Assembly (NCBI RefSeq): GCF_003576315.1
Contig: NZ_QWFZ01000033.1
Location: forward strand, 186,001 to 250,000
Length of the DNA stretch: 64,000 nucleotides
Direction: 5' to 3'
Source: Henriciella mobilis
GTDB taxonomy: Bacteria > Pseudomonadota > Alphaproteobacteria > Caulobacterales > Hyphomonadaceae
The stretch's first letter is position 1; every line of letters starts with the position of its first letter. This document shows positions 1,449 to 26,937 of this stretch, piece by piece. The notes under the pieces were generated by a model, which was not told the origin of the DNA, did no database searches, and worked only from the letters and a program-made list of their open reading frames with translations. The position numbers and the translations under genes are program-made.

Positions 1449-2234
1449 TTGGCAGATCTGACACCGGTAGAGCGAGGGGTACTCGTCGCCCTGATGGCGT
1501 CTGGCGGGTCGCTGAAGGAGAATGCCGACCTCTCTGGGCGCTTCCAGATCAGGATGTCGCCCGCGCACCGCAAGAAGCTGGCCGGCCTCGGGCTGATCAG
1601 GACAAGCAAGAAGCCCTTCGTGCACACGCTGACCGATGAGGGCTGGGCGTTCATGGCGAACGGCTTTCCGATGGACATCCCGCGCGATGGCATGAAGCTT
1701 GGCGCGCTGAACGCGCTCCTTTCTGGGGTGCGAGAGCGTGCCGGCCCCGATGCCGACGCCATCCGGGCCTTCTTCAGCGGCAAGGCGCAAAAAGGCAAAG
1801 CGCCGGCCAAGGCGGAAGAGAAAAAGCCGTCAACGCCGCCGTCGCCGCCCTCAGGGGACACCGATCTCAGCGATGCGGCGTGGAGCGACAGTGAGGAAGC
1901 CCTCGCCATGGCGTTGCAGGATATCGCCGCTTTCGGCGCCCGCATGACCGCCCTTGAGCGTGTCATCGACGACAGCCAGAAGAATGCGGCCAAGCAGCTG
2001 GCCCTCAACGCCGACAGCATCTTCCAGAATATTCGCCAGGCGGCCCGCAAGCGCGGGCTGGAGACGGTTTTCGAGCGCGGCGAGGAAGTCGAATTCGATG
2101 CAGTTCACTTTGATTGTTTTGAAGAAATTGACGAGGGCGAGGCCGCAATCGTCCTGAAGCAACCAGTCGTTAAGCATACTGCGCGAGACCAGACTCTCAT
2201 TGTGCTGCGGGGCCTGGTAAGCCCCGCCGACTGA
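1449..2234 (+). CDS. Winged-helix protein with GrpE-like C-terminal region
   Basis: 261 aa with a TTG start. Residues about 3-70 look like a MarR-type winged helix (helices, then a KKPFVHTLTDEG wing). A low-complexity Lys/Ala/Pro linker follows at about 115-135, then a helical stretch (about 150-205), then a short beta-rich tail whose pattern (VEFDAVHF ... EGEAAIVLKQPVVKH ... LIVLRGLV) resembles the end of the nucleotide exchange factor GrpE. The gene ends 11 bp before an Hsp70-type ATPase gene that has a strong GAGGAGGA ribosome site, so the two probably form an operon. I infer that this is a dedicated exchange factor or adaptor for that ATPase; the GrpE likeness is judged by eye only. Confidence 0.6.
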   Translation: MADLTPVERGVLVALMASGGSLKENADLSGRFQIRMSPAHRKKLAGLGLIRTSKKPFVHTLTDEGWAFMANGFPMDIPRDGMKLGALNALLSGVRERAGPDADAIRAFFSGKAQKGKAPAKAEEKKPSTPPSPPSGDTDLSDAAWSDSEEALAMALQDIAAFGARMTALERVIDDSQKNAAKQLALNADSIFQNIRQAARKRGLETVFERGEEVEFDAVHFDCFEEIDEGEAAIVLKQPVVKHTARDQTLIVLRGLVSPAD

Positions 2235-2245
2235 GGAGGACCCTC

Positions 2246-3640
2246 TTGGCGAAGAGCTGGATTCAAAGACTGTTTCAGAAGCGCGACATCACGCGCATCG
2301 GCTGTATCGACTTCGGCACCGCCTATTCGAAAGTGTCCATTGTCGCGTCCGAATTGTCGGAAGACCTGATGGCCCAGGATATCCATGGCCTGCCCATTGG
2401 CCGGGATATCTCGGCAAACCCTTTCCTGCTGCCGTCGCTTCTCTTCGTTGATTCCGACACGGTGCGCTTTGGCGCGAGCGCCGAGTCCGCGGCCCGGCGG
2501 GGTGAGCGCCGCGGGCGCGCCCCGTTCATGTCGCCGAAGCAGTATCTCAGCACCCATGCGCTCGATGAGCTTGACGACAAGCTGCCGCCTGAGATCGACC
2601 CGACGAATTCCTATTCGGCCCGCCGCCTGATCACGCTTTACCTTGCCTATCTGCTGCGCCGTGCCGAGGATGCTGCGCGCGAGCGTAAGATCGACTGGCC
2701 ACCGCGTTTCCGGATTGCCCGCCCGGCCTGGGACAAGGAGCGCGCCGACTGGGGCGAACAGACGCTTCGCGTGCTTGTGCGCCACGCCTTCATCCTGGTC
2801 GACCGCTTTGGCGACGATCTGCTCGCCAAGGATGGCCTTGCTCACGACGTCGTTCATGATGCCTTCGATGCCATTCCAGACACATCCGATTTCCCCGACA
2901 AGGAAATCTTCGAGATTTCAGAGCACGGCACCACGACTGTGCCAGAAGCGACAGCGGTCGCGGCTGCTTCGCTGAGGCCGGGCGAACGGCGGGTTGTCGT
3001 GGTCGCCGATATAGGCGGCGGCACTTCCGATTTCGCGGCCTTCGTGACCGGCCGGCCCGGCCATAATGTCGTCGCGGAGATCGAGGGCAGCGCCTGCGTC
3101 CTGCGCCAGGCGGGCGACTTTCTCGACATGCAGTTGCGGCGCCTGCTTGTGAACAAGGCGGGCCTCCTGCCGGATGATCCAGCAGCCCGCGGCGCCGTCG
3201 CCATGATCCGGGCGCGCCAGCGCAGCCTCAAGGAAGCCCTGTTTGCCGAGGGGCGAGTCGTGGCCGAGGCTGGCGACCAGTTCGTCGAGATGACGCTGGA
3301 TGAGTTCCTCGCCGATGAACATGTCCAGGCCTTTGCCGGCCGCCTGAAGGAAACCTTCTACAAGTCGCTCGAGCTCGCGGTCGATTTCGCACGCTATCTC
3401 TCGCAGGGTGCGCGTGCCCAGGTGCGGGTCGATATCCTGCCGACGGGGGGCGGGTATAATCTCCCCATGGTGCAGGAGATGATCCGCAAGGTGCCGATCG
3501 AGTGGCGCTTCAACACGATCGCGCCGGAGCTGCTGACCACCGACAATGCCGACTTCAATGCCGTCAGCCGCCAGCTGGCCGTGTCCGTCGGCGGCGCAGT
3601 CCTCGAACTGCCAAGACAGGTCGGCGCTGTCGCGGCCTGA
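2246..3640 (+). CDS. Hsp70-family ATPase without substrate-binding domain
   Basis: 464 aa, TTG start preceded by a GAGGAGGA ribosome site. It has the three nucleotide-binding signatures of the actin/Hsp70 fold: phosphate-1 DFGTAYSK near residue 24, phosphate-2 DIGGGTSDF near residue 255 and an adenosine-binding PTGGGYNLP near residue 405. DnaK is about 640 aa; here the protein ends just after the ATPase domain, so the peptide-binding half is missing. It is therefore a specialised Hsp70-like ATPase rather than a housekeeping chaperone. Its partner is probably the gene directly upstream. The biological role is unknown. Confidence 0.85.
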   Translation: MAKSWIQRLFQKRDITRIGCIDFGTAYSKVSIVASELSEDLMAQDIHGLPIGRDISANPFLLPSLLFVDSDTVRFGASAESAARRGERRGRAPFMSPKQYLSTHALDELDDKLPPEIDPTNSYSARRLITLYLAYLLRRAEDAARERKIDWPPRFRIARPAWDKERADWGEQTLRVLVRHAFILVDRFGDDLLAKDGLAHDVVHDAFDAIPDTSDFPDKEIFEISEHGTTTVPEATAVAAASLRPGERRVVVVADIGGGTSDFAAFVTGRPGHNVVAEIEGSACVLRQAGDFLDMQLRRLLVNKAGLLPDDPAARGAVAMIRARQRSLKEALFAEGRVVAEAGDQFVEMTLDEFLADEHVQAFAGRLKETFYKSLELAVDFARYLSQGARAQVRVDILPTGGGYNLPMVQEMIRKVPIEWRFNTIAPELLTTDNADFNAVSRQLAVSVGGAVLELPRQVGAVAA

Positions 3641-3692
3641 CCCTGTCGCTCCAGCCATGGGCAGGCGGCGCATGACCCGCTAGACTGGCGGC

Positions 3693-4682
3693 ATGTCCCT
3701 GCCGATCATCACGCCGCAGCAGATGTACGCCGCCGAGCAGCACGTCTTCGATGCGGGAACGGCCAGCTTCGATGTGATGCGCATCGCCGGTGAGGGCGTC
3801 GCCGATCATCTCCATGACAGCTTTCCGGATGGTGATATCCGCGTCCTCTGCGGCCCGGGCGGCAATGGCGGGGACGGATTTGTCGCCGCCGCGCGCCTGC
3901 GGGATCTTGGCCGCGAGGTCCGGGTCTATTCTATGAAGCCAGTCGAGGCGCTCAGCGGCGACCCGGCCCAGGCAGCCGCCTTGTGGGGAGGGGCGGTCGG
4001 GACACTGGACGAGGCGCTTTCAGACGCGGCATCGGTGACACTGGACGCCCTGTTCGGAGGCGGGCTCTCAAGGCCACTGTCCGGTGTCGCAGCGGCGCTG
4101 TCCCGGCAGGCTGGTTCGACCGTGTCGGTGGATGTGCCGTCCGGCCTCGACGGGCTGAGCGCGCGGCCGCTTGGCCCATGCTTTCGCGCGAACCTGACGG
4201 TGACTTTTGCGGCATTGAGGCCAGCCCATGTGCTGATGCCGGGCCGGGAGCTTTGCGGCTCGGTGCGGGTTCAGGCGATTGGCGTGCCCGTCGATGAGGG
4301 CGTTCGCACGAATGGCCCGGACATCTGGAACGGGGCCGGCGATGAGGCGGACGATTCCCTGACGGTCAGCGTGTTTGACGTTGATGGCTTTCGCCGTGAT
4401 TTCGATGAGATCGAACGCGGCGCGCCCAACCGGATAGAGGGCGTCCGGCAAGCTGCCGCTCAGGCAGGCTCAGTCCTAGTGGCACTGGGGGAGGACATTG
4501 TCATCGCGGCCCCGGAAGGGCGGTGTGCCGTTCAGCCTGGGATTGCGAGAACGTGGACGCCGGACGATGCCATGGCGGCCGTCCGCAAGGCCCGGGCGCA
4601 AGGGCTTCCGGCCTTCGAAGCAGCCTGCGCTGCCGTCTGGCAAGCCAGCCGTCCAGACGGGGTTGAAAATAAACCGGGTTAA
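3693..4682 (+). CDS. nnrE: NAD(P)H-hydrate epimerase (YjeF N-terminal domain) with eroded kinase tail
   Basis: 329 aa. Residues 1-210 form a YjeF_N domain, which epimerises damaged R-NAD(P)HX to S-NAD(P)HX. Visible motifs are CGPGGNGGDGFVAAARL (about 50-66), DALFGGGLSRPLSG (about 112-125) and VDVPSGLDG (about 140-148). In most bacteria a dehydratase domain of about 270 aa (NnrD) follows and regenerates NAD(P)H. Here only about 115 aa follow. They still resemble pieces of that domain (LGEDIVIAAPEGR; AQGLPAFEAACAAVW), but the start of the domain is absent and the usual A(S/T)GTGDVL-like nucleotide-site motif is replaced by TPDDAMAAV. Epimerase activity is likely; dehydratase activity is doubtful. 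Confidence 0.85.
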   Translation: MSLPIITPQQMYAAEQHVFDAGTASFDVMRIAGEGVADHLHDSFPDGDIRVLCGPGGNGGDGFVAAARLRDLGREVRVYSMKPVEALSGDPAQAAALWGGAVGTLDEALSDAASVTLDALFGGGLSRPLSGVAAALSRQAGSTVSVDVPSGLDGLSARPLGPCFRANLTVTFAALRPAHVLMPGRELCGSVRVQAIGVPVDEGVRTNGPDIWNGAGDEADDSLTVSVFDVDGFRRDFDEIERGAPNRIEGVRQAAAQAGSVLVALGEDIVIAAPEGRCAVQPGIARTWTPDDAMAAVRKARAQGLPAFEAACAAVWQASRPDGVENKPG

Positions 4683-4836
4683 CCGGCGCGTTTGGAGAGA
4701 TCGCTTGAAATCAGCCTACTTTTTGGGCACTTAGGAGAGAGATCAGCGCGATTCAGGAAACATTTTTTGCTTAGTCGCTGGTCGGGCGGCACGATTGAAC
4801 CAGAGTTGGGAAAGGAGCAGCCAAGCGCGTCATTCC

Positions 4837-6264
4837 ATGTCAGATGAATCAGAGCCTTTCGATGAGATGTTCGGTCACGGCGACACGCCGCGCGAACCCT
4901 ATCTTCATTACTGCAACTGGTTTGACGGGGAGGACACGAAGCGGCTGAAACGCAAGGCGCGCGACGCCGAGCACGCCTTTCGCCGGACCGGGATCACCTT
5001 CAATGTCTACGGTCGTGAGGAAGCCAATGAGCGCCTCATTCCGTTCGATATCGTCCCCCACATCCTGTCAGCGCGCGAATGGCAATCCCTGTCGGAAGGC
5101 ATCGAGCAGCGCGTGCGTGCCCTGAACGCTTTCCTGCACGACATCTACCATCGCCAGGAGATTGTCAGGGCGGGGCGCGTGCCGCGCCACATGATTAGCG
5201 AGAATGAAGCCTACCTGTCCAAGATGATCGGTGTCGAGCCGCCGGGCAGCATCTATACCCACATTGTCGGGACCGACATCGTCCGCACCGGCGAGAACGA
5301 GTTCTACGTGCTTGAAGACAATGCGCGTACGCCGTCCGGCGTGTCCTACATGCTCGAAAACCGCGAGACGATGTTCGAGATGTTCCCGGAGCTGTTCATC
5401 AAGAACAAGGTCCGCCCGGTCTCGACCTATCCCAAGCGTCTGCGCCGGTCGCTGGAGGCGTGTGCACCGCCGGCCTGCAATGGCCGGCCGGTGATTGCCG
5501 TCCTGACGCCGGGCATCCACAACTCGGCCTATTTCGAGCATTCCTTCCTCGCCGACGAAATGGGCGCTGAACTGGTCGAGGGCCATGACCTGCGGGTCGT
5601 GGACGGGCGCGTCGCCATGCGCACGACGCAAGGCTATACGCCGGTCGACGTGCTCTACCGCCGTGTCGACGACGATTTCCTCGACCCTCTCAATTTCCGG
5701 CCTGACTCGATGCTCGGTGTGCCCGGTATCCTCGATGTCTACAGGGCCGGCGGGATCACCATTGCCAATGCGCCGGGAACCGGGATTGCCGACGACAAGG
5801 CGATCTATTCCTACATGCCGGACATCGTCGAATTCTATACCGGCGAGAAGGCCAAGCTTCCGAACGTGCCGACCTGGCGATGCTCCGAGCCGGACTCGCT
5901 GGCCTATGTCCTCGACAATCTCGCGGATCTGGTGGTCAAGGAAGTTCACGGCTCGGGCGGCTATGGCATGCTGGTCGGCCCGGCCGCCAGCAAGCGCGAG
6001 ATCGCCGATTTCCGGAAAAAGCTCCAGGCCAAGCCCGATGGCTACATCGCCCAGCCGACCCTGTCGCTGTCGACGGTTCCGATCTTTACGGCCAAGGGGC
6101 TTGCCCCGCGCCATGTTGACCTCCGGCCCTTCGTGCTCGTCTCGCCGAAGGGCGTCGACATCACGCCTGGCGGACTGACGCGCGTGGCCCTCAAGAAAGG
6201 CTCTCTCGTGGTCAATTCCAGCCAGGGTGGCGGGACCAAGGATACCTGGGTGCTTGAATCATGA
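4837..6264 (+). CDS. Circularly permuted ATP-grasp protein (COG2308, DUF404/DUF407)
   Basis: First gene of the Anbu cluster. The family is a circularly permuted ATP-grasp enzyme predicted to form amide or peptide-like bonds using ATP; its substrate is not established. From the ATG at 4837 the protein has 475 aa. An upstream in-frame TTG at 4795 would add 14 residues, but the ATG gives the usual family start. Family hallmarks include YVLEDNARTPSGVSYMLENR, a TPGIHNSAYFEH stretch, APGTGIADDKAIYSYMPD and KEVHGSGGYGMLVGP. The end overlaps the next gene as ATGA, so the two are translationally coupled. Confidence 0.9.
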   Translation: MSDESEPFDEMFGHGDTPREPYLHYCNWFDGEDTKRLKRKARDAEHAFRRTGITFNVYGREEANERLIPFDIVPHILSAREWQSLSEGIEQRVRALNAFLHDIYHRQEIVRAGRVPRHMISENEAYLSKMIGVEPPGSIYTHIVGTDIVRTGENEFYVLEDNARTPSGVSYMLENRETMFEMFPELFIKNKVRPVSTYPKRLRRSLEACAPPACNGRPVIAVLTPGIHNSAYFEHSFLADEMGAELVEGHDLRVVDGRVAMRTTQGYTPVDVLYRRVDDDFLDPLNFRPDSMLGVPGILDVYRAGGITIANAPGTGIADDKAIYSYMPDIVEFYTGEKAKLPNVPTWRCSEPDSLAYVLDNLADLVVKEVHGSGGYGMLVGPAASKREIADFRKKLQAKPDGYIAQPTLSLSTVPIFTAKGLAPRHVDLRPFVLVSPKGVDITPGGLTRVALKKGSLVVNSSQGGGTKDTWVLES

Positions 6265-7202
6265 TGCTCGGAAAGACGGCCGGCGGCCTGTTCTGGATGT
6301 GCCGCTATCTAGAGCGCAGCGCGAACAATGCACGCCTGATCGAGGCGGGCTCGCGCATGATGATGACGCGGACCACCGAGGAAAACGCCGAGTGGGGGTC
6401 GGTTCTGGAAACGGCCAATGTCCGCCAGATCTATGATGAGCGCCACGACGCCGTGGACCGCCAGTCAGTGATCGACTTCCTTCTGCGGGACAGGTCCAAT
6501 CCGTCCAGCGTGATGTCCGTGGTCGAGGCGGCCCGTTCGAATGCGCGGATGGTACGCGTCGCGCTGACCCGTGAAGTCTGGGAGGCCGTCAACGACACCT
6601 GGATGAAGCTCAAGGACGCGCTGGCCCGGCCCGTGCGCGAGACCGAGCTGCCCAACGTCCTGGAACTGATCCGCCAGCAGAGCGCGCAGGTGCGCGGCGC
6701 CCTGCACGGCACGATGCTGCGCAACGACATCTTCAATTTCTGCCGGATCGGTACCTTTCTGGAACGCAGTGACAATGTCGCCCGCATCCTCGACGTGAAA
6801 TACTATGTCCTGCTGCCATCGGTCTCGATGGTCGGGACCTCGATCGACAATTATCAGTGGGAGGCGATCCTTCGCTCGGCGGCAGCGGAGCGCAGCTTTG
6901 CCTGGCTGAACAAGGATTCCGGTCCGCGCACGATTGCCGAATTCCTGATCCTCGATCGGCGCCTGCCGCGCTCGATCGCCTTTTGCTACCTGAACATTGC
7001 GCGCAATCTCGGCTACCTCGAAGCCGAATATGACGAGGCCCGCCCCTGCATGGAGATCTGTGCCGAGACGCTGAACCGGCTGACCTCGACCGATATCGAG
7101 ACCATCTTCCAGGGCGGGCTGCACGAATTCATCCAGTCCATCATCCAGGCGAACAATTCGCTCGGCCTGCAGATCGAGAAGGATTACCGCTTCTATGCGT
7201 AA
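6261..7202 (+). CDS. Alpha-E domain protein (COG2307, DUF403)
   Basis: 313 aa, all-helical alpha-E protein. It starts inside the stop codon of the ATP-grasp gene (ATGA). Family features are the opening MLGKTAGGLFWMCRYLERSA and a second RIGTFLERSDNVARILDVKY block around residues 155-175. Its molecular function is unknown. It almost always travels with the circularly permuted ATP-grasp gene, sometimes fused to it, which points to a shared complex or a scaffold for the ligase. The transglutaminase gene follows after 15 bp. Confidence 0.92.
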   Translation: MMLGKTAGGLFWMCRYLERSANNARLIEAGSRMMMTRTTEENAEWGSVLETANVRQIYDERHDAVDRQSVIDFLLRDRSNPSSVMSVVEAARSNARMVRVALTREVWEAVNDTWMKLKDALARPVRETELPNVLELIRQQSAQVRGALHGTMLRNDIFNFCRIGTFLERSDNVARILDVKYYVLLPSVSMVGTSIDNYQWEAILRSAAAERSFAWLNKDSGPRTIAEFLILDRRLPRSIAFCYLNIARNLGYLEAEYDEARPCMEICAETLNRLTSTDIETIFQGGLHEFIQSIIQANNSLGLQIEKDYRFYA

Positions 7203-7217
7203 GACCGGGAGCTGCCC

Positions 7218-8021
7218 ATGCGCCTGAAGATCGCCCACCAGACCCGTTACCAGTTTGCGGAGCCTGTCAGCTATGCGCTGCAGCAATTGCGCCTGACGCC
7301 CAAGACACGACGGGGGCAGGAGGTCGTTTCCTGGCGGATCGAACTGGAGGGCGGCAAGGAAGAGGTGGCCTTCATCGACCAGTTCAATAATTCGACGCAA
7401 CTGATCAGCATCGAGGAGGGCGCGCGCGAACTGGTGTTCAGGGCCGTCGGGGAGGTGGAGACGCATGACCAGGCCGGGATTGTCGGCGAACATGCCGGCT
7501 GGACGCCGCTCTGGTTGTACAACCGCAAGACCCCGCTGACGGCGCCGGGCCCGACGCTGCGAAAGCTTGCGCGCGGCCTGGGCGCAGACTTCGAGGATGA
7601 TGTCGCGCGCCTGCACGGCCTGATGGAGCTGATCGGCGCGGAAATCGCCTATGAGACGGGGCAAACCCATGCGCAGACCACAGCTGAGGAGGCGGCGGCC
7701 GCCGGCCATGGCGTCTGCCAGGACCACACCCATGTCTTCATTACCTGCGCCCGGCTGCTTGGGTTTCCGGCCCGCTATGTCAGCGGCTATCTGATGATGA
7801 CAGATCGTGTGCAACAGGATGCTTCCCATGCGTGGGCGGAAGCGTATGTTGAAGGGCTGGGGTGGGTCGGATTCGACGTCTCCAATGCCATTTCGCCGGA
7901 TGAAAAATACGTCGCAGTGGCAACCGGGCTCGACTATCTGGATGCTGCCCCCGTGTCCGGGATGACTTTCGGCCACGCGCAGGAGGGATTGGACGTTTCT
8001 GTCCAGGTGCAACAGCAATAG
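7218..8021 (+). CDS. Transglutaminase-like cysteine protease family protein
   Basis: 267 aa. Residues 1-80 match the bacterial transglutaminase N-terminal beta domain. The transglutaminase core has its catalytic cysteine in GHGVCQDHTHVF (about residue 173), histidine in ASHAWAEAYVEGLGW (about 208) and aspartate in GFDVSNA (about 223). No signal peptide is seen, so it is probably cytoplasmic. Such proteins hydrolyse or transfer amide bonds; in this cluster a role in cleaving the product of the ATP-grasp ligase has been proposed. It lies 15 bp after the alpha-E gene and 21 bp before the Anbu gene. Confidence 0.92.
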   Translation: MRLKIAHQTRYQFAEPVSYALQQLRLTPKTRRGQEVVSWRIELEGGKEEVAFIDQFNNSTQLISIEEGARELVFRAVGEVETHDQAGIVGEHAGWTPLWLYNRKTPLTAPGPTLRKLARGLGADFEDDVARLHGLMELIGAEIAYETGQTHAQTTAEEAAAAGHGVCQDHTHVFITCARLLGFPARYVSGYLMMTDRVQQDASHAWAEAYVEGLGWVGFDVSNAISPDEKYVAVATGLDYLDAAPVSGMTFGHAQEGLDVSVQVQQQ

Positions 8022-8042
8022 GCGGGGCCGTTTCGGCATAAG

Positions 8043-8777
8043 ATGACATATTGTGTGGGACTTCGCCTCGACCGGGGCCTGGTGTTCATGTCCGACACCC
8101 GAACCAATGCCGGCGTCGACAATGTCTCCAGATACCGGAAGATGTTTACCTGGACCCAGCCGGATGAGCGCGTCATCGTGATGATGACGGCCGGCAACCT
8201 CGCCACGACGCAGGCCGTGGTCAGCATGCTGGACGAGCGCACCAAGGCGCCGGAAGAACGCAACCCCTCCATCCTCGAAGTGCCGACCATGTTCCAGGCT
8301 GCCCGCACGGTCGGCAAGGTGCTGCGCGACGTGATCCGCGAAAGCGCGCCGAGCCAGGGGCCGGACGCGGAATCGCCCTTCAAGGCGACGATTATCCTCG
8401 GCGGGCAGATCAAGGGCGCTCCGCCGCGCCTGTTCATGATCTATCCGGAAGGCAATTTCGTCGAAGCCAGCGAAGAGACGCCCTTCTTCCAGATCGGCGA
8501 GACCAAGTATGGCCGCCCGATCCTGGTGCGCGCCTATGACCCGGACATGAGTTTCGAGGCCGCGGTGAAGCTGATGATGGTGTCCTTCGACTCCACGCTG
8601 AAGGCGAATTTGTCGGTTGGCCTTCCGCTGGACCTGCTGCTCTATGAGACCGACAGCCTCGCTATCAAGGCGCAGCGGCGGATCGAGGAAGACGACCCGT
8701 ATTTCAATCTGATCTCTGACAATTGGGGCGAGGCGCTGAAGGCCGCCTTCTCCTCGCTACCGGACTACGAGATCTGA
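8043..8777 (+). CDS. Anbu proteasome-type protease (peptidase family T1)
   Basis: 244 aa proteasome-fold Ntn hydrolase of the Anbu (ancestral beta subunit, COG3484) family. The sequence opens MTYCVGLRLDRGLVF, so removal of Met1 exposes Thr2 as the N-terminal nucleophile, and SDTRTN around residues 17-22 carries the usual acidic partner. It is longer than HslV (about 175 aa), as expected for Anbu. Known Anbu structures are helical or lock-washer assemblies without a dedicated ATPase. It is the last gene of the four-gene cluster, followed at once by a terminator. The natural substrate is unknown. Confidence 0.92.
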   Translation: MTYCVGLRLDRGLVFMSDTRTNAGVDNVSRYRKMFTWTQPDERVIVMMTAGNLATTQAVVSMLDERTKAPEERNPSILEVPTMFQAARTVGKVLRDVIRESAPSQGPDAESPFKATIILGGQIKGAPPRLFMIYPEGNFVEASEETPFFQIGETKYGRPILVRAYDPDMSFEAAVKLMMVSFDSTLKANLSVGLPLDLLLYETDSLAIKAQRRIEEDDPYFNLISDNWGEALKAAFSSLPDYEI

Positions 8778-8794
8778 GACATGTGCCTGTTCTG

Positions 8795-8814
8795 AAAAGG
8801 GCATTTGCCTTTTT
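8795..8814 (+). terminator. Rho-independent terminator of the Anbu cluster
   Basis: A short A-rich/T-rich hairpin (AAAAGGGCA ... TGCCTTTTT) starts 17 bp after the Anbu stop codon and ends in a T run. It would close the operon before the tRNA gene. The stem is imperfect. Confidence 0.6.
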
Positions 8815-8851
8815 CACTGAGAAGGCCTATGTCGCCCTTTCCAAAATTCAG

Positions 8852-9678
<827 letters not shown>

Positions 9679-9717
9679 CGCCTCCCACCCGGGTTCAGCC
9701 CTTGGGCCGCCGCGTAC

Positions 9718-9847
9718 CTAGTTGCCGAGATCGACGCCGAGCTTCGGCACAATCAGTACCATAAGGAAATAGAGCGCGATCGTCAGGGCCGCGCCGAGGG
9801 CAAGGGCGCCATAGAAGGGCACGCCGCGATCCAGCAGCCATGGAATG
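9718..9847 (-). pseudogene. DUF3147 gene, 3' fragment
   Basis: The last 40 or so codons of a DUF3147 small membrane protein gene, matching the 3' end of the intact gene at 26938-27294 with a few substitutions and the same stop position. Upstream coding sequence is replaced by an IS3-type transposase fragment at the shared TGGAATG, so the gene cannot make its normal product. It belongs to the left copy of the 965-bp repeat. Confidence 0.8.
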
Positions 9848-10184
9848 GCAGAGCGAAACCGGCATCGCCTGGCACTATATCGCGCCGGGCAAGCCGCAGC
9901 AGAACGGCTTCGTCGAGAGCTTCAACGGAAAGCTCCGCGACGAATGCCTGAACGAAGAGGTGTTCGACAGCCTCGCCCCATGCCAGGAAGGTGCTGGGAC
10001 GCTGGCGGCACGACTACAATCATCACCGGCCTCACTCATCGCTGGGCGGGCTGACGCCCGCAGCGCGCCGGTCGCTCAAGCACTGTGGGAGCACCGCTCC
10101 CGACGCGCTCGCCACACCTCAATCCATGGACTATGAAAGGGGCAGACTCTCGAAATGAGTGAGGGAGTGGAGGGGCTCAGGTCA
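9842..10184 (+). mobile_element. IS3-family insertion sequence, right-end fragment (orfB 3' part)
   Basis: The translation [20 protein letters not shown] followed by [13 protein letters not shown] is the C-terminal part of the IS3-type DDE integrase, including the final catalytic glutamate region. The frame is broken by one extra base near 9977. In the next frame it continues [20 protein letters not shown], then [10 protein letters not shown], and stops at 10156-10158. A likely right terminal inverted repeat, GGGGCTCAGGTCA, lies at 10172-10184. Everything upstream of the orfB C-terminus is missing. It is inactive and forms one border of the 10.2-14.0 kb cargo segment. Confidence 0.85.
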
Positions 10185-16340: not shown

Positions 16341-17483
16341 ATGTCCTTGAACATTATCCACACGTCTGACTGGCAAATCGGCAAGGTGTTTCGCTTCGTC
16401 GATGACGGCACGATGGGGCTGCTTCAAGAAGCGCGGCTTTCGGCCATCACGCGACTAGGTGAGCTAGCGCTGGAACATGGTGCCCCTCACGTTGTAGTTG
16501 CCGGAGATATCTATGACATGGAGGCGTTGTCGCCACGATCGCTGAACCAACCGTTGGAACGCATCCGGAAGTTCGAGAATGTGAAATGGCACCTTATGCC
16601 AGGAAATCACGATCCACATCGGCCACACGGTTTATGGGATCAGCTCATGCGAAGAGGCGTGCCGGACAATGTGATCGTTCATTTCTCCGCTGAACCGAGG
16701 ATTTTCGAAAGCGATGGATTCGCTGTTCTGCCTGCGCCCCTCCAGTACAGGCGCACTCTTCAGGACCCCACTTCTTATATGGATAAAGCGGCAACCCCGG
16801 ATGGGGTTATCCGTATAGGTCTAGCGCATGGCACGGTCAGTGGCTTTGGTTCCGAGGACAAAGACGTTCCAAACTATATCAATCCCGGTAGGCCGAAGTC
16901 GGCGGGGCTCGCCTATCTGGCCTTGGGCGATTGGCACGGACAAAAGAAGATCAACGACAAGGTCTGGTATAGCGGCACGCATGAAACCGATGCGTTTGAT
17001 GTCGAGGGCGGTGGCCAGGCGCTTTTGGTCGAAATCCAAAGTGCTGAATCTGCGCCAGTCGTTGCACCGCTGAAGACAGGCTATTACCAGTGGATGACGT
17101 ATCGCGAGCAGATCAATAGTTATGAAGATGTTGATGCCCTCGCTGCGACCCTGCGCGGCAGTGGAAACGACCTGAGCCAGATTTTGGTGCGCCTTTTTGT
17201 CGAGGGTGCGGTTTCACTTCAGGACCGACAGTATTTTGAGGAACAGATCATCGATCAGGTTTCGGCGGCTTTCGGTTATTTGAGGGTCGATGATACTCGG
17301 CTCTTCCCGAGTCCCAGCGAAGAGGACCTCGATCAGATCGACCGGGGCGGTTTCGTAAGAACTGCGGCCGATGTCCTGAGGCAGAAGGCTGAGAACATGA
17401 GCGATCCCGGCCAGGAGATCGCCGCGCTGGCACTTCAGCGTCTGTACGTCGAGCACATGAAATTGCAGACGAGGAGCCAATGA
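16341..17483 (+). CDS. YhaO/SbcD-like DNA repair exonuclease
   Basis: 380 aa calcineurin-type phosphoesterase of the Mre11/SbcD/YhaO group. Metal-binding motifs are TSDWQIG (residues 8-14), GDIYD (55-59), GNHD (88-91), AHG near 161 and LGDWHG near 195. The family cleaves DNA ends or hairpins and works with a Rad50-like ATPase. That partner is the next gene, which starts within this stop codon (ATGA), so the two are made together. The DWQ form of the first motif and the YhaN-like partner make YhaO a closer model than classical SbcD. First gene of the proposed three-gene cassette. Confidence 0.9.
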   Translation: MSLNIIHTSDWQIGKVFRFVDDGTMGLLQEARLSAITRLGELALEHGAPHVVVAGDIYDMEALSPRSLNQPLERIRKFENVKWHLMPGNHDPHRPHGLWDQLMRRGVPDNVIVHFSAEPRIFESDGFAVLPAPLQYRRTLQDPTSYMDKAATPDGVIRIGLAHGTVSGFGSEDKDVPNYINPGRPKSAGLAYLALGDWHGQKKINDKVWYSGTHETDAFDVEGGGQALLVEIQSAESAPVVAPLKTGYYQWMTYREQINSYEDVDALAATLRGSGNDLSQILVRLFVEGAVSLQDRQYFEEQIIDQVSAAFGYLRVDDTRLFPSPSEEDLDQIDRGGFVRTAADVLRQKAENMSDPGQEIAALALQRLYVEHMKLQTRSQ

Positions 17484-20188
17484 AAATTCGCTCCATCGCA
17501 GTCAATCAGTTCAAGAAGTTTACGACGCCGGTGTGCCTCGACAATATCGGCGGCGGCTTGAACGTCGTCGTCGGTCCCAACGAAATGGGGAAGTCAACGC
17601 TACTCGATGCGCTGCGCGCCGCGCTGTTCGAGAAATACAGCTCCAAGGCGCAGCCAATTACAGCGCTACAAAATGACCGGAACCAGGCCGCACCTGTGGT
17701 CGAGCTCGCATTCGAGGTCGATGACGGTATTTATCGCATCAGAAAGCGTTTCGTAAAGAAGCCATACGCTCACCTGTTCTGCCCGGACGGAAGAAAGCTG
17801 GAGGGCGATGAAGCGGAGGATACGCTGCGCGATCTTCTCGGGTTCGACGAACCCGGCAAGACGGGTGCAAAGCCCGAGACCCTCGGTATGTGGAATGTGC
17901 TCTGGGTTCAGCAAGGTCAGTCCTTTGGTGCGCTCGATCTTCCTGACAGCGCGCGCTCAAACCTTCACAGCGCACTGGAGTCGGAGGTCGGTGAGGTTCT
18001 AGGTGGCAGGCGAGGAAGGGCCTTGCCCGACGCTGTGGAGAAACAGCTCTCCGAAATTGTCACGTCCACCGGTAAGCCGCGTGGCGGTTACAAGGAGCTA
18101 ATAGACGAAGTACAGACTCTGAGTTCAGATCTCGAAGCGCTGCAAAACCGCCGCAGCGATCTCTCCAGAACTCTGGAAGGCTTGGAAACCGCACAGGAAA
18201 CGCTCGCGCGGCTTTCATCGGGAGAGCAAGACCAGAAGGACAAGGAGGAATTGAACGCAGCGCGAAACCGCCATGGTGAGCTTGCCAAGCTGGAATCACG
18301 CATTGAGGCTGCGGCGACTGATGTTGAGCTGAAGAAGCGCAATCTGGAACAAGCCGAACAGGCCCTTGCCGAGCGTCGCACTCTAAAAGATCAACTCACG
18401 AGCGACGCTGCGACGGTCGAGGCGGCGAAGGAGAAACTCGACGAGGTTCGCGAAAAAGATCGGGAGCTGAGGAAACAAGTCGAGGGGCTTCGGAATTATG
18501 CGAAGAAAACCGAGGATGCCGTCACCGAGGCGGATAAGGCTGTGTCGATGGCACGCCGCGTTCTCACTGCCGTTCAGCGCGCGGGCCGCATTCGTGAGCT
18601 TCAGGAGCGGTACGAGAAAGCATACGAGGCCGAGAAGAAGCAAAGGGCCGCCCAACAGGGCGCTGCGGCCATTCTCGTGACCGACGAGAATATTGAAGCG
18701 ATCAGAGATGCCGCGAAGAAATTGGAAACTGCACGTTCCCGCCTTTCTGCCGCCGCGACCCTCGTCTCAATTGATATGCCTTCGGACCGTCTATCCAGGA
18801 TCGAGGTCGATGGAGCAGCACTTGCGGCCGGTCAGACATCGGTGGAAGCGGTCGAAGGGACGACGATCACCATTCCCGATTATGGCAGCATTTCTGTTCA
18901 GCCTGCGATCAAGGACCGGGATAAGCTCATCGCTCAGCAGCGCGAAGCGAACGAAGCCCTCAAGGCAGCGCTTGAGGAGTGCGGGGTCAAATCGGTTGAT
19001 GTGGCAGAGGAACAACTTGCCAAGCGCGAGAAGCTCTTGCGAGATGTGGAACTTGCCCGACAGGAAGCCGAGTTGCACGCGCCAGAGACGGACGACTATG
19101 ACGCCGGTGCGGAGCCGCTTGCGGATCACATTGCGGGCCTGAAGGACATTCTCAAACGAGAGCTGAGTGATCTTGGGATCGAGAGCTTGCCATCGGAGAA
19201 AGAGGCAGATCAGGCCCTCGCCGCTGCTCAGGAAAGTGCGCAGGAAGTCAGGGACATCCAGGCCACTGCCCGAGCGGCTCTTGGCGGGCCAGAAGAAGAG
19301 ATGGGCCGTCTCCAGACCGAGTTGGGAAGTGTGAAAGCACGATATGACGATGGGAAAGAACGTCTCGATAAGCTAAAGAGGGTACTGGCCGAAGCCGAAG
19401 AGCAGGTTTCAGATGATTATCTTGAAGCCGGTGTGACGACCGCTTCAAGGGCTGTGGCGGATCAGCAGAAAGCTGTCATAGAGCTTGAAGGACAGCGTGA
19501 GGGCGAGACGCTGCAGCAAATGGAAGCGCGGATATCACGTTTGGAAACGGCGCTACAGGAGCGTCGTGACAAGCGTTCCGACCTGAACGAGAAAGTTGTC
19601 GGGCTAAAGTCGCATATTGAAGCTCTTGAAGGCGCTGGTCTCGACGAAGCTATTCAGCAGAAAGAACGCGAGGTCGAGTTGGCCGACAATCAGCGTCAGC
19701 GCTACGAGCGAGAGGTTGCCGTGCTTACCCTTTTGTTATCGACATTGCGGTCCGCCGAGACCGAAGCGAAGGAGCGCTACCTCGAGCCAGTTCTGAAACG
19801 CGTTCGTCCCTACTTGCAGCTATTATTTCCCGGCGCTGAGATCGCGATTGATGAGAACCTCCATATCGTTGGCGTCATTCGGGAAAACGGCCACGAAGAA
19901 TCTTTCGAACATCTGAGCATGGGCACGCAGGAACAAATCGCCGTTCTTGTTCGTCTCGCATTTGCCGAGATGTTAGTCGAGCAAGGTCATCCCGCAACCG
20001 TCGTGCTGGATGATGCGCTGGTGTTTTCCGATGATCGGAGAATGGGCCGCATGTTCGATATTCTCAACATGGTGGGGCGGCAGGTTCAGATCATCGTACT
20101 TACGTGTCGTGAGCAACTTTTCGAGGGCATTGGCGGTCGCCAATTGTCCCTGAAAACTGCAAGCGGCGAAGAATTGGTTTCAGCATGA
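17480..20188 (+). CDS. YhaN/Rad50-like coiled-coil ATPase
   Basis: 902 aa SMC-like ATPase. The N-terminal Walker A GPNEMGKST is at 32-40. Long coiled coils occupy about 190-400 and 480-770, interrupted by a small beta-rich insert around 425-475 (EGTTITIPDYGSISV). The ABC signature LSMGTQEQ is near 812 and Walker B VVLDDALVF near 841. There is no CxxC zinc hook; the only central cysteine is isolated. That, with the DDALVFSDDRR form of Walker B, fits YhaN rather than SbcC. It should bridge or clamp DNA and drive the phosphoesterase encoded just upstream. The RloC-like gene follows after 39 bp. Confidence 0.9.
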   Translation: MKIRSIAVNQFKKFTTPVCLDNIGGGLNVVVGPNEMGKSTLLDALRAALFEKYSSKAQPITALQNDRNQAAPVVELAFEVDDGIYRIRKRFVKKPYAHLFCPDGRKLEGDEAEDTLRDLLGFDEPGKTGAKPETLGMWNVLWVQQGQSFGALDLPDSARSNLHSALESEVGEVLGGRRGRALPDAVEKQLSEIVTSTGKPRGGYKELIDEVQTLSSDLEALQNRRSDLSRTLEGLETAQETLARLSSGEQDQKDKEELNAARNRHGELAKLESRIEAAATDVELKKRNLEQAEQALAERRTLKDQLTSDAATVEAAKEKLDEVREKDRELRKQVEGLRNYAKKTEDAVTEADKAVSMARRVLTAVQRAGRIRELQERYEKAYEAEKKQRAAQQGAAAILVTDENIEAIRDAAKKLETARSRLSAAATLVSIDMPSDRLSRIEVDGAALAAGQTSVEAVEGTTITIPDYGSISVQPAIKDRDKLIAQQREANEALKAALEECGVKSVDVAEEQLAKREKLLRDVELARQEAELHAPETDDYDAGAEPLADHIAGLKDILKRELSDLGIESLPSEKEADQALAAAQESAQEVRDIQATARAALGGPEEEMGRLQTELGSVKARYDDGKERLDKLKRVLAEAEEQVSDDYLEAGVTTASRAVADQQKAVIELEGQREGETLQQMEARISRLETALQERRDKRSDLNEKVVGLKSHIEALEGAGLDEAIQQKEREVELADNQRQRYEREVAVLTLLLSTLRSAETEAKERYLEPVLKRVRPYLQLLFPGAEIAIDENLHIVGVIRENGHEESFEHLSMGTQEQIAVLVRLAFAEMLVEQGHPATVVLDDALVFSDDRRMGRMFDILNMVGRQVQIIVLTCREQLFEGIGGRQLSLKTASGEELVSA

Positions 20189-20227
20189 GATATTGAACTG
20201 ATTTAGCGCCGGGATGAATGCCGATCT

Positions 20228-22960
20228 GTGAAAATTAATACCGGAAGGGGGGAACTCTTGCCATTCGAAGAATCGCTAGATTGGGCGTCCAATGAAAATC
20301 GGCCGACTTGGCAGCGCGACGCTTTGCGTCGCCTTGCGGAAAATGGAGAACTGACCGAAGAGGATCTTTCAGTATTACGAACGTATATCGAAGTATCTCA
20401 GGGCCTATCGGTGGAGGCACTCCCTGCGCTTGAGCCTTTGGCACAGGAACATCTCTCTGAGGCTTCCAGCAACGCCCCTAAAACAGTTTTGGCTTCCCTT
20501 GGGCCTGTGAAGCATGTGGATCGGCTGGAATCGGACCAGCCGCCCATCCGCTTTGCCGTAAACGGGGTTACACTAATCTACGGGCCCAATGGATCGGGTA
20601 AAAGCGGCTACTGCCGCATCGCAAAGCAAACATGCCGCGCTCTGGAAACAGGCAAACTGCGAGGTAATGTCTACGACGACACTCCCCCACCCCCGGCGGA
20701 GGTGGGTATTAGCTTTCGTGTCGGTGGCGAAGACCAAGAGAAGGACGAACTCGTCTGGCGTGGTGATGAAAAGCCGCCGTCGGAACTCGCCCGAATTTCC
20801 GTATTCGATACGGCTTCCGCCAGAGTTTACGTCGATAAAGAGCGCAAGATCGAGTTTCTACCCTACGAGCTGGACCTGCTTAATAAGCTTGGCCTTGCGG
20901 TGCGTAGCTTGGACAACGAATTTAAGACACGGGAAGATGCGCTCAATAATGATCTTCGAGTCACTCTGCCGACCGGCTTTAACGAAGGTACGGTAGTTTC
21001 AAGTCTTCTAGCTAAAATGGTGCCTGAAACAGCTCTCGCAGATTTGCCGTCCAAAGATGACATCGTAAAGAACGCCGTTTGGACGGATGAGGAGCAGGCT
21101 GAGCTAGATCGCCTGATCGAAGAAACCAAGAACGATCCGGTTGCCATCGCGCGTTTACGCCGCGAAGCCAAACAGGCTCTAGGAACAGTGGGGAACAACA
21201 TCTCCGATTTCGAGAGCAAAATTGGGGATACGGCGATTAAGGCATTATCCGAAAAGCAGAAAGATGCCGTTCGCAAACGCGAGGCTGCTGAGGCAGCAGC
21301 AAGCGACCTGTTTAAAGGACAGCCGATTCCCGAAATCGGATCTGAGACATGGGCGCAGATGCTGAGATATGCGCGTGATTTTGCACTGGAAGCTTTCCCT
21401 AATGGCGAGCCGCCTCAGATTTCGACAACTGATCGATGCGTTCTATGTCAGCAAGAATTGGACGATGATGCGTCCGCTCGATTGAAGGCGTTCGATGAGT
21501 ACCTAGAGGATCGGGCCGCTGCGGACGCGGCCGCAGCCAAAACAGCTTTCGATCAGGCCGCAGCCCTAGTTTCGAATTACAGCATCAAGTCCAAAGACGA
21601 AGTTGGAACGATTCTCGCGGGCTATAGCGCGTTGGACGATGAGAGAAAGGCACTTGCAGAGAAGATAGGTGAATATTTCGGAAAGGCCAATGCGCGACTG
21701 ACGCTTCTCAAGAAGGCGTTGAAGGAACAGGACTATACGAAATTTGAAGAGCTAGAGCCTCTCCCGGAATCCATCGTCGACTTGATTTCCGCCGATGAAA
21801 AGAAACTGGCTGAGGAAAGCGAGGAATTCGACCGTCTTGCCGCTGACGATCAGGAGGCGAAGAGGTGGGCTCTGAGGATTGCGGAGTTGAGCGACCGCAA
21901 GAAGCTGAGCCAGGAAATTGCTGTGATCCTTGATCGTCTGGTTAAGCTTGAAGAACGACTCAAAATTGGCGCTTGCAGAGGCCTTTGTCAGTTACACCCC
22001 ATCACCCGTCAAATTAATTCGCGTCGTCGAAAACTTCTCACACCGTCTCTAAAGGACGCGCTCAAGGATGAACTATCGGCATTGCATCTGACGCATATCC
22101 CGGTCGATCTAAATGATCGTGGTGATTTGGGTAACAGCATAGTCGAAGTGGCTTTGTCCGCCCGACAGCGGGTCGCCAATAATAGCGAAGTCTTGAGCGA
22201 AGGGGAACAACGTGGGTTGGCGCTCGCCTGTTTCTTGGCGGAGCTTGAAGAGATAGGCCGAGATCACGGCATCATCATCGACGATCCGGTCTCATCGCTG
22301 GACCACTCACGCATGCAATCTGTTGCGCGTCGATTGGCCGAGGAGGCTGCCAAAGGTCGGCAGGTGATTGTCTTCACACACAATATTCTGTTTCATCACA
22401 TGCTTAGTGCCGAGGCGCGCCGGCTTCAGGTCGCCTGTCACGAAGAATGGATGAGTAGTCTTGGTGAGAGCCGTTTCGGTATTATCGACGATGCACAGAA
22501 GCCGAGGCAGATGAAGAACGTGACTGAACGGCTCAATGAAATTGAAGCAAATAGCAAGAGCCTCGATGAGTTGGGATATGATCCGACCGACGAGAAATTG
22601 AGAACACTAGTCGTCGGCCTTTATACGCAGATGCGTGATACTTGGGAGAGAATTGTAGAAGAGATCTTACTCAACCGTGTTGTGCAAAGGTTTAGGCCGG
22701 AGATCATGACGCAACGGCTTGAAGAAGCATGTATTGATCCCGAAAGTGACTATCCGTTGATATTCGAGGGAATGAAGAGATGTTCCCATTATTCCGGACA
22801 TGATCCTGCCGAGAGCCTCCCAACAGGCCTCCCTAAAGCGGATGAGATCGTTCAGGATATCGAAGCCCTTAAGCAATTTGCCAAAATCGCTACTGAACGG
22901 AGAAGCAAGCTTCGAAAAGGCCGCAAGTATGAACAAGGCGTGGAAGCAATACTTTTGTAA
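20228..22960 (+). CDS. RloC/PrrC-like AAA ATPase with zinc hook and HEPN-like C-terminus
   Basis: 910 aa, GTG start. Residues 20-60 form a small helical domain (RPTWQRDALRRL...ELTEEDLSVL). The ABC-type ATPase has Walker A GPNGSGKS at 119-126, signature LSEGEQRG near 656, Walker B IIIDDPVSSLDH near 680 and a VFTHN histidine near 716. A CVLC zinc hook lies near 404 between coiled coils, as in RloC. After the ATPase, a helical tail has RDTWE near 802 and RCSHYSGH near 850, compatible with the R-x4-6-H motif of HEPN ribonucleases, the domain used by the anticodon nucleases PrrC and RloC. I infer a DNA-sensing toxin that cuts RNA; tRNA as target is a guess. Confidence 0.78.
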   Translation: MKINTGRGELLPFEESLDWASNENRPTWQRDALRRLAENGELTEEDLSVLRTYIEVSQGLSVEALPALEPLAQEHLSEASSNAPKTVLASLGPVKHVDRLESDQPPIRFAVNGVTLIYGPNGSGKSGYCRIAKQTCRALETGKLRGNVYDDTPPPPAEVGISFRVGGEDQEKDELVWRGDEKPPSELARISVFDTASARVYVDKERKIEFLPYELDLLNKLGLAVRSLDNEFKTREDALNNDLRVTLPTGFNEGTVVSSLLAKMVPETALADLPSKDDIVKNAVWTDEEQAELDRLIEETKNDPVAIARLRREAKQALGTVGNNISDFESKIGDTAIKALSEKQKDAVRKREAAEAAASDLFKGQPIPEIGSETWAQMLRYARDFALEAFPNGEPPQISTTDRCVLCQQELDDDASARLKAFDEYLEDRAAADAAAAKTAFDQAAALVSNYSIKSKDEVGTILAGYSALDDERKALAEKIGEYFGKANARLTLLKKALKEQDYTKFEELEPLPESIVDLISADEKKLAEESEEFDRLAADDQEAKRWALRIAELSDRKKLSQEIAVILDRLVKLEERLKIGACRGLCQLHPITRQINSRRRKLLTPSLKDALKDELSALHLTHIPVDLNDRGDLGNSIVEVALSARQRVANNSEVLSEGEQRGLALACFLAELEEIGRDHGIIIDDPVSSLDHSRMQSVARRLAEEAAKGRQVIVFTHNILFHHMLSAEARRLQVACHEEWMSSLGESRFGIIDDAQKPRQMKNVTERLNEIEANSKSLDELGYDPTDEKLRTLVVGLYTQMRDTWERIVEEILLNRVVQRFRPEIMTQRLEEACIDPESDYPLIFEGMKRCSHYSGHDPAESLPTGLPKADEIVQDIEALKQFAKIATERRSKLRKGRKYEQGVEAILL

Positions 22961-25880: not shown

Positions 25881-26102
25881 GAGGCAATTAAAATGCAGAG
25901 TTCTCGGAGTTCAAGCTGAAGAACTTGGTGCGACGCTCACACCAGATTGAATTCGGCAGTCAGGTCCGTTTCAAAAGGTCTGTCAACCTGATGTTTCGGT
26001 CATCATGATTGCCACCCCATCTAAAATCACCAACAATATTAAGGTCTGAAAGAACTGAAAAAGGTGGCAACAATCTCAATATAGTCAGAGCTCTATGGTT
26101 GC
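25881..26102. other. AT-richer spacer at the right island end
   Basis: No gene is seen. The stretch is clearly more AT-rich than the chromosome to its right and contains separated inverted arms (ATTGCCACC around 26006 and GGTGGCAACAAT around 26063) just inside the right tRNA repeat. Such arms near an att core may be recombinase or accessory-protein sites, but this is only a suggestion. Confidence 0.4.
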
Positions 26103-26147
26103 CTCTTAATCAGCGGGTCCGAGGTTCGAATCCTCGTGGGCGCACCA
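26103..26147 (+). repeat. Right 45-bp direct repeat (putative attR core), tRNA-Lys 3' half
   Basis: Exact copy of 8883-8927: anticodon loop, anticodon stem 3' side, T-arm and CCA end of tRNA-Lys, without the 5' half. It therefore encodes no tRNA and marks the boundary between the island and the resident chromosome. Confidence 0.88.
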
Positions 26148-26898
26148 CCGTCACATCGACCGCAACAAGGATACACAGCCCGGCAAAGGCCGTGGCGATG
26201 AGGGGCCATTGCACGGTCTCGAATGCGGCAAGGCTGCCTGCGCTGTCCAGCGCCCGCACAATGCCGAGCGTGCCGAGCGCATTGTGAAAGGCGATGGTCG
26301 CGTAGAGGTCTTCCGTCAGGAAAAAGACCGCGCTTGTTACCAGGCCAATCACGCTCAGAAAAGCGACCATGCTGGGCGTGTTGAATGGCGCGCTGTGGGC
26401 AAAGTGATAAACGCCAAACAAGACGCTCGCGATGATGGCTGCTGCCGGAACCGCCAGCCAAGCCCGGTATTCAACACTGCGCCGAACAGAGCCGGCCACT
26501 ACCGCCCAGCAAACCATGACTTCGGCCATGGAGACCACAAAGACCTGCGCATAGGCGTTCAGGATCACGACCGGATCAAGCGATGGTGCGCCGCCGGCCA
26601 TGTAGAAAAGCAGGCCGGCAGCGAGCCCGGCAGGTACGAAGAGCGCCGAGCGGCGCAGCGGTCCAAAGCCGCTACGGCGCGGCTGGGCCGATGCTATCGT
26701 GAAGCGCCGCCGAAGGACGAGGCCGGCTGCAAGCACGCCGATCAGCAGGTTGGCGAGGATGGCGTAGATCAGTCGCTCTACCACGGCGTCTGGCCGGCCG
26801 AGCGTGTTGATGCGCCCCTCGAGCCACCACGTCGCACCTGTCCACGCAATCCACAGGCCTAGCGCCCAGAGGATGGATTGGCCTTTATGTCCTGTCAT
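26110..26898 (-). CDS. CPBP-family intramembrane protein, resident copy
   Basis: 262 aa from the ATG at 26898, the same length as the island copy at 8890-9678 and about 88% identical by eye. It has the same features: multiple membrane segments, FGVYHFAH and HNALG motifs, and a degenerate first motif (MAEVMVCW). Its last residues are again encoded antisense to the tRNA-Lys 3' half. This shows that the run-in to the tRNA predates the split. The DUF3147 gene ends 39 bp upstream on the same strand. The cellular role is unknown. Confidence 0.82.
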   Translation of the reverse strand: MTGHKGQSILWALGLWIAWTGATWWLEGRINTLGRPDAVVERLIYAILANLLIGVLAAGLVLRRRFTIASAQPRRSGFGPLRRSALFVPAGLAAGLLFYMAGGAPSLDPVVILNAYAQVFVVSMAEVMVCWAVVAGSVRRSVEYRAWLAVPAAAIIASVLFGVYHFAHSAPFNTPSMVAFLSVIGLVTSAVFFLTEDLYATIAFHNALGTLGIVRALDSAGSLAAFETVQWPLIATAFAGLCILVAVDVTVVRPRGFEPRTR

Positions 26899-26937
26899 TG
26901 CCTCACACCCGGGTTCAGTCCTTGGGCCGCAGCGCAC

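Follow-up and report, generated by a model that had tools for sequence, protein, structure and literature searches.

A YhaO/YhaN-type gene pair with an exchangeable RloC- or OLD-type gene behind it in Henriciella mobilis and its relatives

The DNA analysed here, hereafter the window, is a stretch of 64,000 nucleotides from Henriciella mobilis (contig NZ_QWFZ01000033.1, positions 186,001 to 250,000). It contains three intact genes on the forward strand, coding for a YhaO-like metallophosphoesterase, a YhaN-like ATPase and an ABC ATPase of the RloC type. The names YhaO and YhaN are labels taken over from an initial annotation of this DNA and not the result of a comparison with the Bacillus proteins. 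That annotation treated the three genes as one candidate system, a view that does not survive as stated: a fixed trio is ruled out, as in close relatives a different gene follows the pair, in most cases for an OLD nuclease or another RloC. What is conserved is the pair, followed by a slot whose gene is exchanged among loci, and one slot family has diverged together with the pair. Based on these findings we propose that the cassette is probably a modular anti-phage operon, in which a YhaN-YhaO core would be combined with a swappable ATPase-nuclease effector.

16341..17483, + strand: YhaO-like metallophosphoesterase (Mre11/SbcD-type), 380 amino acids (aa); intact open reading frame (ORF), Pfam match, motifs
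17480..20188, + strand: YhaN-like Rad50/SMC-type ATPase, 902 aa, without zinc hook; intact ORF, Pfam matches
20228..22960, + strand: RloC-type ABC ATPase, 910 aa, with CxxC hook and C-terminal triad; likely start TTG 20258; exchangeable slot of the putative effector
16365..22953, + strand: DNA homology (85%) with the trio of locus L036 (genome G060, same genus); DNA comparison
20147..20188, + strand: end of yhaN, limit of the DNA homology shared with loci of other third-gene types; DNA comparison

The slot behind the pair

The clade of the pair was compiled with a profile of six aligned YhaO sequences, which gave 71 loci on genome contigs. After addition of plasmid loci and further genome loci and removal of duplicates and broken contigs, 26 loci with a YhaO identity of about 60% or more were retained, the window included. 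Dropped were duplicates (L035, identical to L093; L037, to L105; L224, to L114; the G362 copy of L115), loci that are truncated or frameshifted at the slot or ahead of it (L094, L096, L099, L101, L108, L112, L119, L120) and partial pairs (L159, L161, L163). In 20 of the 26 loci (19 of 25 plus the window) a defence-nuclease gene lies directly 3' of yhaN on the same strand:

RloC-1, 5 loci: window, L036, L103, L106, L118
OLD-a (OLD/Toprim), 3 loci: L093, L097, L102 (5' part interrupted in L102)
OLD-b (OLD/Toprim), 7 loci: L095, L098, L107, L111, L113, L117, L223
RloC-2, 4 loci: L031, L100, L110, L222
Gabija GajA-GajB, 1 locus: L104
No such gene, 6 loci: L105, L109, L114 (yhaN truncated), L115, L116, L124

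The neighbourhood search suggested by the initial annotation thus recovers the same trio in L036, L103, L106 and L118 and other slot genes elsewhere in the clade. OLD-a and OLD-b share 24-28% identity, and RloC-1 and RloC-2 match different PADLOC models. The gaps between yhaN and the slot gene are type-specific, with 59-85 bp for RloC-1 (39 or 69 bp in the window, depending on the start codon), 42 bp in two of the three OLD-a loci, 15-29 bp for OLD-b and 116-122 bp for RloC-2. No slot family was found by tblastn at the upstream neighbour of the pair (0/25 clade loci), nor by profiles in the remaining 123 ORFs (200 aa or longer, pair genes excluded) of these 25 loci; 19 of 142 ORFs match slot-family profiles, all of them in the slot. 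As type III restriction-modification (R-M) genes precede some pairs (see below), the upstream null holds for the slot families only.

At the DNA level, the window and L036 align over 16365-22953 with 85% identity, and the alignments with L103, L106 and L118 also run on into the third gene. With L035, L097, L031, L095, L098 and L100, i.e. loci of other types, the alignment extends from yhaO to 20147-20188 only. None of these ten comparisons reveals shared pieces of more than 80 bp outside the pair or trio. The pairs of the window and L093 are 89% identical, yet an RloC gene follows the one and an OLD gene the other; similarly, the pair DNA of L104 and L105 is 90% identical and diverges immediately after the pair.

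Exchange is also evident from the trees. The pair tree has 30 rows, including six from outside the clade (L121, L122, L123, L125, L128, L131) and omitting L222 and L223. On this tree RloC-1 requires five changes, at least four of them forced by well-supported branches, OLD-b seven (four forced), and OLD-a and RloC-2 two each; without the rows lacking a slot gene the total is eight changes. On the tree of RloC proteins (29 rows) the five RloC-1 slot proteins need only one or two changes, which allows a single origin in one clade. Given the four or more changes forced on the pair tree, a single RloC lineage has apparently moved from one lineage of the pair to another. OLD-b, in turn, tracks pair identity closely (n=8 including L131, rho 0.97, 0/5000 permutations), and this co-divergence suggests that OLD-b is the oldest slot partner.

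The encoded proteins and known systems

The overlapping Mre11/Rad50-type pair without zinc hook described in the initial annotation is confirmed. The genes yhaO and yhaN overlap by 4 bp, and Pfam matches above cut-off are Metallophos for YhaO and SMC_N, AAA_15, AAA_21 and AAA_27 for YhaN, the SbcC Walker B model matching below cut-off only. YhaN matches Rad50 chains, and no CxxC zinc hook of the Rad50/SbcC kind is present in its sequence; its C-terminal tails look partly type-specific in the few rows compared. YhaO has a weak match to SbcD (E 0.0053). Mre11-type phosphoesterases carry the metal-site motifs DxH, GD, GNHD, a single His and GHxH. In YhaO the corresponding positions are D10-x-Q12, GD56, GNH90D, H163 and GD197WH199, i.e. 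GD, GNHD and the single His are kept, DxQ replaces DxH and GDWH replaces GHxH. D197 is found in 39/39 aligned YhaO rows and Q12 in at least 90%, so that the altered form is shared by nearly all aligned relatives, whereas the SbcD of L228 carries the histidines.

The third protein matches AAA_13 and AAA_21 of Pfam above cut-off, contains Walker A, signature and Walker B motifs of ABC ATPases and is a PADLOC PDC-S06 match (E 1.3e-183), in agreement with the initial annotation as an RloC-like, zinc-hook ABC ATPase. RloC, the PDC-S06 family, comprises ABC ATPases with an anticodon-nuclease/HEPN C-terminus. According to the available part of the report by Davidov and Kaufmann from 2008 (PMC2610378), to which the statements below on that paper are likewise limited, RloC is defined by an Arg-X3-Glu-X36-52-His triad and a zinc-hook insert, and replacement of any triad residue inactivates Geobacillus RloC. 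In the window protein the hook is CVLC at 404-407, with CxxC in 24/24 aligned homologues, and the triad is R803-X3-E807-X50-H858 (R in 23/24, E in 24/24, H in 24/24). As the bare spacing pattern turns up in 50% of shuffled tails, the evidence for the triad is its conservation and not the pattern match. Triad and hook match the RloC definition, and by these sequence-defined features the third protein is a member of RloC. It differs from the 2008 set in length (910 or 900 aa versus 658-897 aa) and in being encoded behind an Mre11/Rad50-type pair. The tail motif RCSHYSGH highlighted in the initial annotation is conserved in its last His (24/24 homologues) and less so in its Arg (17/24). A PDB sequence search with the third protein gave no match.

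The third gene was placed 39 bp behind the pair, which is correct for the GTG start at 20228. The start is probably TTG 20258, which lies behind the Shine-Dalgarno-like ggaagggggg and yields 900 aa and a gap of 69 bp; the same gap is found in L036 (900 aa) and L118. All three genes are under purifying selection relative to the G060 trio, with ratios of nonsynonymous to synonymous substitution (dN/dS) of 0.09 for yhaO, 0.125 for yhaN and 0.127 for the third gene.

Several known systems resemble the cassette in part. SbcCD and Mre11-Rad50 are likewise encoded by overlapping genes for a phosphoesterase and a coiled-coil-type ATPase, whereas the pair described here has altered metal-site motifs in YhaO, no zinc hook, an accessory distribution and a linked putative effector. 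Lamassu (LmuB with the effector LmuA and in most cases LmuC), in the available part of the literature, likewise combines a Rad50/SMC-like core with exchangeable effectors; the window core, however, has a metallophosphoesterase partner and the slot proteins are themselves ABC ATPases. The best PADLOC match of YhaN is LmuB (E 2.8e-17, partial). Lamassu identity is ruled out by missing parts, neither LmuA nor LmuC being found for the trio (YhaO has no PADLOC-DB match; for the other two proteins the best 25 matches were considered), and the third protein is best matched by PDC-S06 models. Gabija (GajA with the UvrD-type GajB) and the OLD family hold the same slot in relatives; the window trio itself is not Gabija, as Pfam finds no OLD/Toprim or UvrD domain. 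In the available part of a review, class 1 OLD proteins are encoded by single genes and class 2 together with GajB, and the word Rad50 does not occur there. In PrrC-EcoprrI an anticodon-nuclease ATPase is likewise coupled to a DNA-acting complex, which, unlike the window pair, is a type I R-M enzyme (PMC3710099, available part). RloC, OLD, Gabija and Rad50-like Lamassu are thus already known, and it is the pair-plus-slot arrangement that appears to be new: no description of it was found in the open-licence literature, which is weak evidence of absence. The designation PDC-S06 occurs in four papers of that literature. The initial annotation's suggestion of an undescribed system accordingly holds for the arrangement in that literature and not for the third gene, which alone is PADLOC's listed candidate PDC-S06.

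A candidate modular operon and its alternatives

Two further observations bear on modularity. Firstly, the ORFs of 111 loci, the window included, were searched with phmmer for type III R-M proteins, and upstream neighbours were scanned for their families in L093/L035, L103, L096, L107 and L100. A type III restriction subunit gene lies directly 5' of the pair, 66 bp away in L093, overlapping in L103 and 28 bp away in L096, each time preceded by a methylase gene (Mod-Res at 3196-8140 of L035, 52-4829 of L103 and 1202-5699 of L096). The three systems match different PADLOC models and are unrelated to one another. Type III genes thus occur near 3/25 clade loci, plus L096; a similar gene pair lies upstream on the other strand in L124 and downstream in L241, and none was found by phmmer in the window ORFs. 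Secondly, the combination recurs in other pair lineages. In L241, a Sphingopyxis plasmid, a pair of 40% identity is preceded at a distance of 91 bp by an RloC-2 relative, in L087 and L041 (Paracoccus, G046) the pairs have OLD genes 33 and 91 bp upstream, and in L228 (G606, 2119-9096) a gap of 136 bp separates an SbcD-SbcC operon from the RloC-type gene behind it.

The modular reading is favoured because 20/26 slots are filled on the same strand with type-specific gaps and a homology break at the end of yhaN, because of the tree-forced exchanges, the co-divergence of OLD-b and the recurrence in other pair lineages, and because of the type III R-M genes upstream of three pairs. Both the defence activity and the mechanism are inferred from sequence. 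The YhaN-YhaO complex, of the Rad50-Mre11 type, would engage DNA ends of an invader or otherwise abnormal DNA, and where an R-M system lies upstream the ends might be made by restriction. The effector would be an ABC-ATPase nuclease of one of several unrelated types, with its gene immediately behind those of the core. In the window, the RloC-type enzyme would cleave RNA, with tRNA anticodon loops as the most likely target, and halt translation once the core signals an invader. The sequence of events proposed in the initial annotation, in which the pair would process DNA ends and the third protein would sense the result and cleave tRNA, is plausible. The chances are about even that the operons form a new immune family in which an Mre11-Rad50-type end complex with remodelled metal site serves as common sensor for at least four separate, exchangeable effector lineages (two RloC, two OLD) and is itself pluggable behind restriction systems.

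Several points weigh against this reading. Six of the 26 clade loci have no defence-nuclease gene in the slot, several loci are metagenome-assembled genomes with doubtful labels, and the effector profiles were built from the same slot families that they tested. RloC-1 shows no co-divergence with the pair (n=5, rho 0.3, p 0.21), and that of RloC-2 is borderline (n=4, p 0.08). All labels together require 15 changes versus a shuffled mean of 17.0, a value reached in 28/200 shuffles, so that, OLD-b apart, the slot gene is only weakly tied to the pair lineage. As the two canonical Mre11 histidines are replaced, nuclease activity of YhaO is uncertain. Finally, defence genes cluster anyway, as the upstream R-M genes illustrate.

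Alternatively, the pair, or a restriction system together with the pair, might silence the third protein, which would be released when a phage inhibits the complex. Such guard behaviour is found in the groups to which the slot families belong. In the parts of the sources available, EcoprrI silences PrrC and RloC is linked to R-M loci (PMC3710099, PMC2610378), and OLD and Gabija react to the absence of RecBCD from DNA ends (PMC12407980). OLD kills cells without RecBCD, and the type III genes directly upstream of the pair in L093, L103 and L096 fit as well. We consider this explanation less likely than the modular reading, yet a serious rival. One observation speaks against strict silencing: L163 (8001-10354) has only a YhaO/YhaN remnant, the result of an internal deletion and a stop codon, and the OLD gene behind it is intact (a second pair elsewhere in that genome was not sought), so that this effector at least seems not to be lethal without its pair.

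It is considerably less likely that two independent defence systems travel together without functional coupling, with YhaO/YhaN acting as a nuclease and RloC, OLD or Gabija as a separate system. RloC relatives do occur without a pair directly beside them (Bradyrhizobium, Rhizobium, Mesorhizobium, Pseudosulfitobacter), the Gabija genes in the L104 slot already make up a full, known system, and in L105 a SIR2-like gene in convergent orientation and an ATPase gene replace the slot gene. The fixed strand, the type-specific gaps, the co-divergence of OLD-b, the lack of slot families at the upstream neighbour within the clade and the recurrence in other pair lineages argue against independence. A DNA-repair operon, in which the pair mends breaks and the third gene acts as a checkpoint for damage, would suit the protein families of the pair and the proposal of RloC as DNA-damage responder (PMC2610378), but is highly improbable, since the pair is present at 60% identity or more in only 4/299 genomes of the order and 5/385 of the class (both counts include the genome of the window), nothing beyond the pair or trio is common with the window DNA in the ten comparisons (pieces of more than 80 bp), one copy is on a plasmid and the neighbouring gene changes often.

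If the modular reading is true, the cassette would join Lamassu as the second defence core of the Rad50 type whose effectors are swappable and place RloC and OLD nucleases under one control module. The pair may then be the silencing or tethering partner of RloC whose existence was suggested in 2008. The old question of what keeps RloC silent and what releases it would become testable, and near-identical cores with different effectors, e.g. RloC in the window and OLD in L093, provide natural swap pairs.

Further relatives and the setting in the window

Of the three outside relatives nearest to RloC-1, two lie 107-109 bp behind nSTAND3 proteins (Thioclava, Phaeobacter). L034 (5615-10703) and L033 (6238-10706) code for an RloC 50% identical to that of the window behind an nSTAND3 protein, which in L034 is PDC-S73 with an Mrr domain. 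On a Mesorhizobium plasmid, the start of a gene with the annotation DNA repair exonuclease is about 6.5 kb from the RloC relative, and in L243 (6001-13123, Roseobacter plasmid) an RloC-2 relative (64%) lies close to two paired genes on the opposite strand that are annotated as SbcD and ATPase. Distant pairs in L127 (12033-17036) and L133 (8410-13614) are followed by ORFs of 1667 and 1735 aa from one cluster, that of L127 being a helicase with REase MTES_1575. A viral origin of the pair was rejected, as the pair was not found in viral contigs and YhaN not in phage records. RloC homologues are present in viral contigs among the matches listed; in L245 such a homologue lies beside ORFs that read as R-M-like.

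A scan for promoters and terminators gave no excess over shuffled sequence. The initial annotation placed the cassette on a tRNA-bounded island. This applies to one side, where a tRNA-Lys gene is found; the other side has a partial tRNA repeat only.

8852..8927, + strand: tRNA-Lys(ctt), left island boundary; tRNA call
26100..26918, + strand: repeat of the tRNA 3' half and the adjacent ORF, right island boundary; repeat comparison

The stretch from 8880 recurs at 26100-26918 with 93% identity over 300 bp and 89% over 819 bp (8880-9698), the repeat comprising the 3' half of tRNA-Lys and the adjacent ORF. G+C is reduced across most of the DNA between the tRNA and its partial repeat, and the ORF at 9840-10136 resembles what we take to be a transposase fragment. 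The 89% repeat suggests tandem islands at one attachment site.

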